In this document: positions 13,789 to 22,425 of the stretch, piece by piece | How the letters are laid out: each line of letters starts with the position of its first letter | How positions within the stretch are numbered: the first letter of the stretch is position 1 | Virus record (IMG/VR): IMGVR_UViG_3300025141_000790 | Location: 1-23,250 of that record | Source: a virus | Reading direction: 5' to 3' (one strand) | Length of the DNA: 23,250 nucleotides | Translations under genes and position numbers: made by a program | The notes under the pieces: model-generated | The model's input: the letters and a program-made list of their open reading frames with translations, nothing else | The model's database searches: none | What the model was told of the DNA's origin: nothing

Positions 13789-13880
13789 AAAGGACCGGCG
13801 TCCAAATAATGCCTCGCGCTATTCCCTGTACGTCAAGCGATGACCCCGAAAGGGTAGCCTCGGAGCCTTTGCTCTCATAG
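13785..13880 (+). CDS. Candidate 31-residue ORF with TTG start, ended by TAG and open again beyond it
   Basis: From TTG 13785 (TTGA overlap with the upstream stop) or ATG 13809 the frame reads ...MPRAIPCTSSDDPERVASEP and stops at TAG 13878-13880. The same frame then continues EYVHGNYEGYYE to TAA 13917-13919. The stretch is distinctly GC-rich compared with all neighbours and also contains several small inverted repeats (for example CTCATAG 13875-13881 pairing with CTATGAG 13897-13903). It may be a real small gene cut by an amber codon, a decayed gene, or a structured RNA. Confidence is low. Confidence 0.3.
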   Translation: MKRTGVQIMPRAIPCTSSDDPERVASEPLLS

Positions 13881-13923
13881 GAGTACGTGCACGGAAACTA
13901 TGAGGGTTATTATGAATAATAAA

Positions 13924-19253: not shown

Positions 19254-19859
19254 TTAGTGTTTACCATAACATATGTTTGCTGTGTCCCTGTTCCAGCAGG
19301 CGCGACAGCTGCCGCATTCGTTCCCCTGATCGGGGGCCGGGCAGGTCCTGTCCTGGGCCTTCGTTGATACAGTAGAAGTCCACGGCCAGTGCTTCACCGG
19401 TCCCTGGTCTATCATATGTGAGCTTATTCTAATAATTAAATTTGGCGGAATTACGTCAGGATCCATAAGCGTCAAAAATTTTACTTCTCGTGTTGGCATC
19501 CAGTGCCGGGTCCCTGGTGTACGCTTGCACACTTCAAAAATATTTTTGAGATGCTCAGGGCTCTGGATGTCGCCGGAGTCGTGCCAGCGGAACCAGTCCT
19601 GGTCCTTGATCAGTGTTACCATGGCGTCCACCCATCTCGGGTGGGTCAATGCTTGCAACCTACGGTTGAGCGCCTCTTTCACGTTCCTGAACCTGTAGCG
19701 GCCTTTCATGGCGTAACAGCCAGCGCACACGGATCCGGGGACCGCCTGCAGCTTCACGCCTGTGATACACTTCCAGGCCGGCAGGTTGTGCGCCGGTCCG
19801 GGCATCTTGGACGGCTTCGACAGCCCGCCGGTGATTTGTCTTGCTTCTTTTTTTAGCAT
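19254..19859 (-). CDS. GP88-family phage protein
   Basis: A 201-residue protein of the family known as phage gene product 88. Visible hallmarks: SKMPGPAHNLPAWKCITG (17-34), CAGCYAMKGRY (C45, C48), FRWHDSGDIQS (89-99) and a C-terminal cysteine cluster CPAPDQGNECGSCRAC (C173, C182, C185, C188) plus C197. Two Cys clusters suggest metal or Fe-S binding; the biochemical role is not established to my knowledge. The gene is strikingly GC-rich relative to almost the whole window, pointing to recent transfer. It starts at ATG 19859, overlapping the stop of the gene before it (TGATG). Confidence 0.82.
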   Translation of the reverse strand: MLKKEARQITGGLSKPSKMPGPAHNLPAWKCITGVKLQAVPGSVCAGCYAMKGRYRFRNVKEALNRRLQALTHPRWVDAMVTLIKDQDWFRWHDSGDIQSPEHLKNIFEVCKRTPGTRHWMPTREVKFLTLMDPDVIPPNLIIRISSHMIDQGPVKHWPWTSTVSTKAQDRTCPAPDQGNECGSCRACWNRDTANICYGKH

Positions 19860-20279: not shown

Positions 20280-20837
20280 TTAATTTGATTTTTTTGTACT
20301 TCCACCTTGGATGCTTATGTTGTCTCCGTCAAACCCTGCACCCTTCAACATGTCTCCAATTTTAGAGATCATCTTAACTTCTGCATGTTTTTCGTGTTTG
20401 TCTTTGTATTTTATATATTCCTTGTTCATGATCACAGGCTCAAGTTTACTAAAATAAAATTGAGCATCATTAAAACCATCTTTAGTTTTAATTGATTTTG
20501 ATGTTGCTACATGCCATCTATTATTTTTAAATAGATAGATATATTCAATCATAAATTCACCGTCCATATATCTCATGTAGTGTGATTCATTATTGAAAGT
20601 CTTTGCTGGCTCTTCGTCTCTCTTCCAGTCTCTTCCATAAAAACTACACTCATCAATGGTATCACCTAAATAGCTGGCATCTCCATGATTAAATAATAGT
20701 TCCGCAACATCTCTTTTATTATAATGATCAACCAGGCATTTACCCACTCCGTAAGGGTAGCCGTCCGAGTGTACATATATAACTTTTACTTTTTTTGTCT
20801 TCGGGTCTTCTATTGCTATATTTGATCTTGTACTCAT
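20280..20837 (-). CDS. Conserved phage protein of unknown function (MSTRSNIAIE type)
   Basis: A 185-residue protein with an N-terminal pattern I recognise from many phages: MSTRSNIAIEDPKTKKVKVI (1-20), YVHSDGYPYGVGKCLVDHY (21-39). The usual family pattern is S-T-R-S/T-x-I-A ... Y-x-H-x-D-G-Y-P-x-x-V-G. The middle (YMDGEFMIEYIYLFKNNRWH) is beta-rich; the C-terminal 50 residues are basic and variable, ending in a short flexible tail. Function unknown. AGGAG precedes the ATG; it is driven by the promoter at 20862-20890 and followed by the long hairpin at 20227-20258. Confidence 0.75.
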   Translation of the reverse strand: MSTRSNIAIEDPKTKKVKVIYVHSDGYPYGVGKCLVDHYNKRDVAELLFNHGDASYLGDTIDECSFYGRDWKRDEEPAKTFNNESHYMRYMDGEFMIEYIYLFKNNRWHVATSKSIKTKDGFNDAQFYFSKLEPVIMNKEYIKYKDKHEKHAEVKMISKIGDMLKGAGFDGDNISIQGGSTKKSN

Positions 20838-20861
20838 TTATTTCTCCTTTGTTAATTTTAT

Positions 20862-20890
20862 ATCTTATAATATCCCAGAACCATTGTCAA
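20862..20890 (-). promoter_or_regulatory. Leftward promoter of the 20280-20837 gene
   Basis: Minus strand: TTGACA (20890-20885), 17 nt, TAAGAT (20867-20862), with AGGAG before the ATG. The spacer contains TCTGGGATATTATA, also present (other strand) at the promoter near 22429. The -35 box abuts octamer array C in the same way as at 20142. Confidence 0.7.
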
Positions 20891-20940
20891 GCTTGAAATC
20901 TTACGCTTGCAGGCTTGCAGCTTTCCGGGCGGGCCCACCC
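20889..20940. repeat. Octamer repeat array C with GGGCGGGCCCACCC
   Basis: Degenerate to perfect octamers in 8-nt register on the plus strand (AAGCTTGA, AATCTTAC, GCTTGCAG, GCTTGCAG), then the same 14-mer GGGCGGGCCCACCC (20927-20940) as in array B. Confidence 0.65.
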
Positions 20941-20941
20941 C

Positions 20942-20973
20942 AAAAAAGAAGCGTACAACCTCAGATTGTACGC
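20942..20973 (-). terminator. Leftward intrinsic terminator
   Basis: Minus strand: GCGTACAA - TCTGAGG - TTGTACGC (perfect 8-bp stem, 20973-20951) followed by TTCTTTTTT (20950-20942). No protein gene lies immediately upstream on this strand. Confidence 0.8.
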
Positions 20974-21363
20974 CCCATTCCTAACAGATTGGAATTTTTT
21001 GACCGGTGTTGTCCCGTGCAGGTCGCTGAGTCGCGTCATTATCAGCTTAAGAGATCCCCGACACTACCTGTACTATAGCCGTTTAAATCCGGCAGTTACA
21101 ACACTGATCCCAGATCCTTGCTCTTCACAGGCCGGTTGCATGTGCCTTAGCCCACTAATAACAAGGATCAGGGATCAGTTCTGGTCATTGGTAGGTTAAC
21201 TGATTCGTTAATTTACTTCACAACCAGAAGTTGTCCCAAAAAATTGATGCCTAGTTACAAGATCAATTTAATTCATAAATTCTTTCTGCATTCTGCTTGT
21301 GCGTTTTTGTACTGCCACAAGCAGAATAGCTTAAATGTTATATTAAGTTTTTATAAATAATAT
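20942..21363 (-). ncRNA. Candidate ~420-nt structured non-coding RNA
   Basis: A leftward promoter (21370-21398) and the terminator at 20942-20973 bracket about 420 nt with no good ORF but many inverted repeats: TTCTGCTTGT/ACAAGCAGAA (21291-21300, 21317-21326), AAATTGAT/ATCAATTT (about 21241-21269), a 17-bp arm pair with one mismatch (21104-21120, 21162-21178), GCTGA/TCAGC and ATTCC/GGAAT. It does not match tmRNA, RNase P, 6S or group I intron landmarks that I can recall. The alternative is a DNA-level element such as an origin or attachment region. Confidence 0.42.
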
Positions 21364-21369
21364 AATATC

Positions 21370-21398
21370 TTATATAATCCCTTGACAAGTATTGTCAA
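21370..21398 (-). promoter_or_regulatory. Leftward promoter reading into the candidate ncRNA
   Basis: Minus strand: TTGACA (21398-21393), 17 nt, ATATAA (21375-21370), within GGGATTATATAAGATAT, closely resembling the spacer and -10 of the leftward promoter at 20862-20890. Its -35 box forms a palindrome with that of the rightward promoter (TTGACAAGTATTGTCAA, 21382-21398). Confidence 0.58.
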
Positions 21399-21410
21399 GT
21401 AGTATAAAAA
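21382..21410 (+). promoter_or_regulatory. Rightward promoter of the 21445 gene
   Basis: TTGACA (21382-21387), 17 nt, TAAAAA (21405-21410) (or 15 nt to TATAAA), followed by the CAGAAAGGACA leader and ATG 21445. Divergent from and overlapping the leftward promoter. Confidence 0.6.
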
Positions 21411-21444
21411 TTTATTTATGCAAACAACAGAAAGGACAACAAAC

Positions 21445-22425
21445 ATGAGCAGAATAAGATTGAACCAAGAGTATAGAAACAAGATCGCAAATCGTATGCG
21501 AGTACACTTGGAACAAGAAAACACACAAGAAAAACAAAAGTATGATGACCTCAAAGCAGAACAAATTGAGTTAAATGACAAGGGTTGGAATTTAGCCGAA
21601 ACCATTGTTAGAAAACATTATACACCAGAAGATGTCAAAATGGCATATCATCTACAAAACAAGTTTGAAAATGTTTCGACTATTGCAAAAGATAGTTGTT
21701 TTCATTTTCATTATTTAGGACAAGTAGAAGATAGAGATTATGACAACAAGCCAATTATGAAAGAACAAAATGTTGAAGAGCATTTTGACTTTAAATTAAA
21801 TGGCGAGTTCGAGGGTACTGGTAGCGATAGTTATGATAGCAACAAAGCTTATGGCTATGCTCTATATCGTGATGAACTCAAAGCACAAGATAATTGCAAC
21901 CCAGATATTTTAATTGAGCAAGAGGGTAAAGACAATAACCCACACTTAACAAAATATACTGATAACAATAATAAATATCTTGGGAGTGAGGATAGTGGCT
22001 ATGGCAAACAATGGAACGAGAAATATCAGCTTGACTTAATTGGGCGAGAATATTGTAGAGATAGGTCTATTGCTTGTACGCAAGAACAATTCCTAATGCT
22101 TAAAGAGTGGAAACAAGCAAAAGGTAAATTTGTTATTGCTCATAGAAATTGGATTAAATCTGTATTAGACCAGATGAAAGAAATTAAAATCGGTCTTAAA
22201 GGTTATAAATATTTAGATGAAGCAATAGAATTATCTACTGAACTTGGTTTGAATATTACTGACGCAGAAATAATCAGAACAAACTCTACTGGGCTTGTAA
22301 TCTATAATCCTAAAAATCTTGCTGAAAGAGTTAAAGGAATGAAGAACAAAAATTCTTCAAGAGAGGACAAGATAAAAGCGAGGTTATTGTATGAGCAAAA
22401 CCAAGCTGAAAATAGTGTAAATTAG
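21445..22425 (+). CDS. Hypothetical protein, charged, 326 residues
   Basis: The ATG at 21445 is preferred because AGAAAGGA lies about 9 nt upstream; an ATG at 21418 is almost at the predicted transcription start. The N-terminal third is helical and rich in E, Q, N and K (NKIANRMRVHLEQENTQEKQ), the middle is acidic with many Asp, Asn and Tyr residues (TGSDSYDSNKAYGYALYRDE; EQEGKDNNPHLTKYTDNNNK), and the end is basic and helical. No enzyme motif, signal peptide or membrane segment is seen. Cysteines are few. It opens a new rightward unit whose codon choice (many AAC/AAG) differs a little from the replication block. Function unknown. Confidence 0.7.
   Translation: MSRIRLNQEYRNKIANRMRVHLEQENTQEKQKYDDLKAEQIELNDKGWNLAETIVRKHYTPEDVKMAYHLQNKFENVSTIAKDSCFHFHYLGQVEDRDYDNKPIMKEQNVEEHFDFKLNGEFEGTGSDSYDSNKAYGYALYRDELKAQDNCNPDILIEQEGKDNNPHLTKYTDNNNKYLGSEDSGYGKQWNEKYQLDLIGREYCRDRSIACTQEQFLMLKEWKQAKGKFVIAHRNWIKSVLDQMKEIKIGLKGYKYLDEAIELSTELGLNITDAEIIRTNSTGLVIYNPKNLAERVKGMKNKNSSREDKIKARLLYEQNQAENSVN

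Follow-up and report, generated by a model that had tools for sequence, protein, structure and literature searches.

A predicted modular RNA with palindromic hairpin tips, encoded between the terminase genes of HTVC023P/HTVC027P-type pelagiphages

Introduction

What does a stretch of phage DNA encode that lies between divergent genes and holds no convincing gene of its own and, if the product is an RNA, how might that RNA work? The stretch in question (positions 20942-21398) belongs to virus record IMGVR_UViG_3300025141_000790, a sequence of 23,250 bases, and by the window we mean the whole stretch of DNA analysed, i.e. positions 1-23,250 of that record. The window encodes a primase, a UvrD-type helicase, a family A polymerase, an exonuclease, a small terminase and GP88, and its source is a Pelagibacter phage of the HTVC023P/HTVC027P type. 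The hosts of pelagiphages are the most abundant bacteria of the ocean. The HTVC023P-type pelagiphages, among them HTVC027P (PMC12753301), have been described as widespread and abundant (PMC9599517), and no account of a structured RNA was found in the literature consulted on this type.

Divergent genes flank the stretch, with orf185 and GP88 to its minus side and orf335 to its plus side (Table 1). G+C content is 0.45 around 20801-21200 vs. about 0.32 in neighbouring stretches, and a blastn search of phage records with this sequence returned no real match. An earlier note had read it as a candidate structured RNA of about 420 nt, transcribed from the minus strand with its own promoter and terminator.

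Results

Table 1. Positions in the window of the predicted RNA elements, their signals and the neighbouring genes
Feature	Position	Strand	Remarks
orf335	21418..22425	+	divergent neighbour gene; 43% identity to HTVC027P gp35
Divergent promoter-like site of orf335	21382..21411	+	overlaps RNA promoter
RNA promoter (TTGACA .. TATATA)	21371..21398	-	sequence and conservation in homologous loci
HP-1, 5' hairpin	21290..21327	-	12-bp stem, conserved GGCAGUAYAAAAACGC loop
Small A+U-rich hairpin	21238..21272	-	predicted fold
HP0 hairpin, GGGACAACUUCUGGUUGU..CCAGAA	21180..21239	-	G-U arm variants in homologues
Hairpin unit type 1, CUGAUCCC-U.U-GAUCC.., inner motif UAUUAGUG/UGUGAAGA, apex GGCACAUGCAACC	21104..21178	-	
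Junction module J: P1, P2, P3 and apical arm	21006..21104	-	CGCG in apex
Intrinsic terminator	20942..20976	-	13-pair stem and U tract; local to the window's lineage
orf185	20280..20837	-	gene downstream of RNA; own promoter-like site 20890-20862
GP88	19254-19859	-	minus-strand gene

The minus-strand promoter claimed in the earlier note is present, with TTGACA at 21398-21393 and ATATAA at 21375-21370 in N17 spacing; in an alternative N16 reading the -10 element is TATATA at 21376-21371. Its -35 element sits within the palindrome CTTGACAAGTATTGTCAAG, which is common to the divergent plus-strand promoter. Consensus matching alone gave no promoter enrichment in the region (17 found vs. 13.3 expected), but this promoter is conserved: upstream of the first hairpin unit, in RNA orientation, the motif TTGACA-N16-18-TATNNW occurs at 89 of 149 homologous loci vs. 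1 of 149 shuffled ones. The terminator was likewise found and is followed by TTTTTT, although its stem has 13 pairs (20976-20948) rather than the 8 bp first assigned to it. Tandem AAGCTTGAAGCTTG / GCTTGCAG repeats, located at 20900-20925 in the window and present in many homologues, were also seen just upstream of minus-strand gene promoters.

The promoter and terminator bear on the possibility that the minus-strand operon, comprising orf185, GP88 and terS, begins with this element as a structured 5' leader, acting for example in put-like antitermination of transcription. The RNA does lie directly upstream of the minus genes and on the same strand, and canonical terminators on that strand are rare among homologues (7 of 148 loci) and hence not conserved, so that read-through is possible. 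In the window, however, a strong terminator separates the RNA from the gene downstream, which has a promoter-like site of its own, and AAGCTTGACA, readable as the -35 element of that gene, is frequent in homologues. We consider a leader improbable.

At least six inverted repeats had been noticed, and we counted 12 inverted-repeat pairs in the stretch. The longest, first seen as 17-bp arms, was confirmed and in fact has arms of 23 nt (21103-21125 / 21157-21179) that are 87% complementary, while the shorter pair described as perfect is indeed perfect, over 12 bp and not 10 (21290-21301 / 21316-21327). At -141.2 kcal/mol, the predicted minus-strand fold is far more stable than those of dinucleotide-shuffled sequences, which give -100.7 kcal/mol (z -7.1) and in none of 100 cases reach so low an energy. 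Because the plus strand folds about equally unusually (z -7.6), folding energy alone does not give the strand. The impression that the stretch lacks a gene was borne out in homologues, where all reading frames of the J module are interrupted in most of 59 sequences and no ORF is conserved. ARAGORN found no tRNA or tmRNA gene in the window; the T-arm appearance of GCCG-UUUAAAUC-CGGC on the plus strand was dismissed, as it lies on the wrong strand, has an 8-nt loop and drew no tRNA call. We also rejected the plus-strand T-run module GATTTTTTCTCAT as a terminator, since on the RNA strand it reads as an A-run, which by its sequence could pair with a U-run within that module.

A homology search with orf335, made without reference to the hairpin unit, yielded 80 viral contigs. 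Compared with these, the stretch resolves into a mosaic of short matches in varying order, i.e. into recurrent modules, and at least one hairpin unit is present at 59 of the 80 loci, several of the unit-less loci being truncated contigs. A search with the unit pattern matched at least 120 stretches among 2.9 million viral contigs (IMG/VR) and a single one, itself on a phage contig, among 11.3 million genome contigs. In the contigs so retrieved, the unit adjoins homologues of GP88, orf335 (identity down to about 25%) or terS; in seven retrieved contigs without a usable gene match the unit is also in the terS-terL interval, and in all that could be placed it lies in this interval, between terS/GP88 and orf335/terL. 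The unit has the same genome position in HTVC027P, which is in culture, and in the complete genome 023Pt_psg01. The position of the predicted RNA locus is thus fixed across these phages.

A place between terS and terL is what one might expect of a packaging RNA that, like phi29 pRNA, forms rings via loop-loop pairing. No need for a pRNA is known among phages with a terS/terL terminase, which counts against this function. The phi29 pRNA does multimerise by loop-loop pairing, but its loops are complementary and not palindromic (PMC7357161). Moreover, gp33 and gp34 of HTVC027P, the genes that follow the RNA on its 3' side and on its strand, make up an outlier expression cluster peaking early to middle, not late (PMC12753301), so that a role in packaging seems to us quite unlikely; this early-to-middle expression would fit early use of the RNA promoter region.

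Regarding the proteins encoded next to the RNA, GP88 shows high conservation, including invariant cysteines and the stretch FRWHDSGD, and its AlphaFold2 model is confident (pLDDT 92). Structure models of orf335 and GP88, made to look for a fold that binds RNA, were both usable, and neither had a PDB match at E <= 0.001.

Each hairpin unit is built on the same plan of a constant 8-bp stem, a U-U mismatch, about 8 covarying pairs and a hypervariable arm, with the consensus CUGAUCCC-U.U-GRUC-(variable)-GAYC-U-GGGAUCAG in the RNA sense. The search pattern partly dictates pairs 1-13, and these were not counted as evidence, with the exception of pair 11, both sides of which were free and which is G-C in 100, A-U in 100 and mismatched in 2 of the 202 non-redundant units. 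In the same units, pairs 14, 15, 16, 17 and 18 are paired in 100, 99, 97, 95 and 85%, respectively, and each of them occurs as several pair types, with U-G present and C-A almost absent. Beyond position 19 the arms are hypervariable. The J module, of about 100-115 nt, is located between two units and comes in two types. A joint alignment of both aligned badly and was superseded by separate alignments; with structures set by hand, 98.7% and 99.3% of cells are paired, double changes occur in 10 and 4 pairs, and none of 500 shuffles scored as high for covariation. Covariance models of the two J types each find members of the other type as well as new ones, always on the RNA strand and at the unit locus. 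The J module of the window is matched at 21006-21104 by model R2 (81.6 bits, E 6e-25; the window is among the 16 sequences of that model), and that of HTVC027P is matched weakly (18.4 bits, E 0.006). The stem sequence of HP-1 also varies among homologues (L011, L021, L051, L058, L060, L067, L069 and L087).

Covarying base pairs are therefore present among homologues in units and in J, and this compensation, judged from aligned sequences, is of the kind by which a new RNA family is recognised. Two further elements were observed at these loci. A conserved module, AAUGAGAAAAAAUCAGC..GCCAGGUUUUGCUCAUAUGCG, is found 3' of the units and upstream of orf335 in L007, L015, L016 and L030, and its stems apparently covary. 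A hairpin, AUUAUUUGC-U-GGUCC..GGACC-U-GCUAAU, lies between J and the match to Rfam family RF02976 in L202 (8432-8980) and L201 (about 535-640); the AUUAUUUGC hairpin has another constant outer stem on the same U-U mismatch plan and is probably a second unit family.

The strand of the RNA is settled by the kind of variation tolerated in the stems. In HP0, beside the unit, the 5' arm (in plus-strand reading) varies as TTCTGGTTGT, TTCTAGTTGT, TTCTGATTGT, TTCTGGCCGT and others while the 3' arm is constant, and every such change, A-C when read on the plus strand, becomes G-U on the minus strand. Of 237 oriented units, 203 fold better as the minus strand and 220 have U-U as their internal mismatch; G-U pairs amount to 7.9% on the minus vs. 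4.0% on the plus strand. In one J (L188), the P2 loop is swapped for C(UUCG)G on the RNA strand. Because of the G-U variants, the better minus-strand folds and the promoter conserved on the same strand, we read the RNA leftward, which agrees with the minus polarity proposed earlier from promoter and terminator. A DNA element such as a replication origin, a cos/pac or recombination site, with hairpins acting in single-stranded or cruciform DNA, would account for the position between terminase genes, for inverted repeats on both strands and for arms that recombine between phages; the one-strand variation to G-U and not A-C, the C(UUCG)G loop in J of L188 and the conserved promoter are, however, features of RNA and make a DNA element very improbable. 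Cumulatively, covariation, G-U wobbles, the promoter and the lack of a conserved ORF argue that the minus strand of 20942-21398 specifies a conserved, dedicated non-coding RNA with a defined structure.

The predicted RNA is modular, with 5' hairpins followed by one to three units flanking J. One unit was found in 74 loci, two in 69 and three in 13. Since in 20 of 20 pairs of loci with one unit interior in common the remaining units are unrelated, whole arms move as cassettes that are swapped between phages, presumably via recombination in the constant flanks. The structural claim of the earlier note thus stands, while its fixed length of about 420 nt does not, as the RNA is modular with arms that differ between phages.

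At the tips of these arms, six-base palindromes are frequent and vary by phage: TTGCAA, ATGCAT, CTGCAG, GGTACC, GGCGCC, TAGCTA, TCTAGA, AACGTT, ACGCGT, ATATAT and AGGCCT. By shuffle tests that treat related sequences and therefore overstate significance, the J apex carries a 6-nt palindrome in 21 of the 39 distinct windows, where 4.8 were expected and no more than 12 arose in any of 5000 shuffles, arms of type-1 units, the window's own type, carry one in 11 of 13 (0 of 5000 shuffles), and the interiors of all units hold 179 six-base palindromes vs. 117 expected (sd 9.9) and 83 eight-base palindromes vs. 30 expected (sd 5.5). No palindrome excess was found in the 60 nt that precede the first unit on its 5' side. 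In the coding DNA of orf335 homologues six-base palindromes are depleted (52 vs. 103 expected), which looks as if the phages avoid restriction-type sites in coding DNA.

J modules that are 87-93% identical outside the apex carry different palindromes; L017 and L074, for example, have GGCGCC and CTGCAG at the J apex and are 93% identical elsewhere. In J modules outside the original sample, found by a pattern that excluded the apex, the apex is palindromic in 5 of 5, once with a new palindrome (AAGCTT). The window's own unit and J apexes hold no 6-nt palindrome, just the 4-nt CAUG/UGCA and CGCG, and such 4-nt-only tips also occur in L015 and L020; the J arm of the HTVC027P type is without a palindrome. 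At 6 nt the J apex is no more often complementary to units of its own RNA (0.069) than to those of others (0.098), and this speaks against kissing between J apex and unit arms within one molecule.

The property that the tips have in common is self-complementarity, which would be expected of identical RNAs that pair by their tips. We hypothesize that the switching of palindromes with self-complementarity kept is the signature of homotypic kissing loops and that these RNAs form homo-oligomers, which we consider somewhat more probable than not. The same reasoning has been applied to OLE and GOLLD (PMC12286853); in the symmetric kissing loop L9.3 of OLE, the palindrome GGCC changes to GAUC or AGCU, in support of homo-oligomers (PMC12286853). 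A monomeric structured regulator, or a decoy for a protein or RNase whose constant stems titrate a host or phage RNA-binding protein while the tips are incidental or cap stems, would explain why the same outer stem is present one to three times per RNA and why the arms are hypervariable, as in an arms race, and would suit the location of gp33/gp34, with their outlier early-to-middle expression, just 3' of the RNA (PMC12753301). Incidental capping does not predict, however, that palindromes at the same apex switch yet stay palindromic, and we regard a monomeric role as unlikely, albeit one to be taken seriously.

The earlier note recognised no known class of RNA, and an Rfam scan of the stretch also gave no family match, with RF02976 absent from 20830-21450 at E up to 5. 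Matches to snoR104, mir-1788, caiA and CRISPR-DR33 were all below gathering and are read as chance, and the Rfam models of ROOL, GOLLD and OLE matched neither the window nor 39 other sources. RF02976 (Flavobacterium-1; gathering threshold 58.9 bits) occurs in the window only at 13789-13907 on the plus strand (71.1 bits), in an intergenic position away from the RNA. In both HTVC027P (L206:17753-17873, minus strand) and KB911123.1 (L201) it lies immediately 3' of unit and J, on their strand and ahead of the next gene; 20 further loci gave one match, outside the unit region. The RF02976 module thus occurs at more than one place, as comparison of the window with the HTVC027P unit locus illustrates. 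KB911123.1 is filed under Flavobacterium sp. SCGC AAA160-P02, and its GP88, gp35 and terS are 87%, 89% and 74% identical to those of HTVC027P; to judge by these identities it is an HTVC027P-like phage contig, and host labels based on it are doubtful. Because KB911123.1 is a relative of HTVC027P, the name of RF02976 probably records the wrong host. In HTVC027P and KB911123.1 the family is a 3' neighbour domain of unit and J, but its 121 positions cover no unit and no J.

Discussion

On balance, we favour as the best explanation, with rather better than even confidence, an ornate phage RNA that homo-oligomerises through palindromic tips pairing tip to tip. The RNA would be transcribed leftward from a sigma-70-like promoter overlapping the divergent promoter of orf335. 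Its tips would serve as homotypic kissing loops by which identical RNAs pair, giving dimers or larger particles, and the constant stem (CUGAUCCC/GGGAUCAG), together with its U-U mismatch, may be a common handle that serves as a joint within the particle or as a protein-binding site. The assembly might then act in infection as an RNA scaffold, as has been proposed for ROOL and GOLLD.

In kind, it would be a large ornate phage RNA that, if it does oligomerise, works like ROOL, GOLLD and OLE and is a member of none of them. ROOL and GOLLD, which are phage-encoded, and OLE share with it a complex secondary structure (PMC12286853). Unlike them, the pelagiphage RNA is smaller (about 430 nt in the window), is not located at tRNA arrays, consists of shuffled hypervariable cassettes on a constant stem and has no sequence match in Rfam. 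With phi29 pRNA it shares a phage origin, a location near packaging genes and, as assumed here, multimerisation by loop-loop pairing, but the loops by which pRNA pairs, R and L, differ from each other and are complementary, and no similarity of sequence or architecture was detected. The genomic RNA of HIV-1 dimerises by a six-base palindrome in an apical loop (PMC7357161), and the sequence of the J apex, with GG-AUGCAU-A or GG-UUGCAA-A enclosed by A-G/C-U pairs, is reminiscent of the purine-flanked DIS loop; in contrast to the DIS, the pelagiphage RNA is non-coding and has several arms and many different palindromes.

Functional natural RNA oligomers have rarely been observed (PMC7357161), and a family that holds so many natural versions of the same putative kissing loops amounts to a ready-made experiment in RNA self-assembly. 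An infection transcriptome exists for HTVC027P with its host HTCC1062 (PMC12753301), so that expression of the RNA can be tested at once. The catalogued orphan RNA RF02976 belongs to pelagiphages, probably not to Flavobacterium, and before now the catalogue held just a fragment of the pelagiphage RNA. More speculatively, and with a low probability in our estimate, these RNAs may constitute a self-assembling class in which loop 'barcodes' particular to each phage are carried on swappable arms and restrict assembly to their own kind in co-infected cells; if true, this would be modular self/non-self recognition by RNA.
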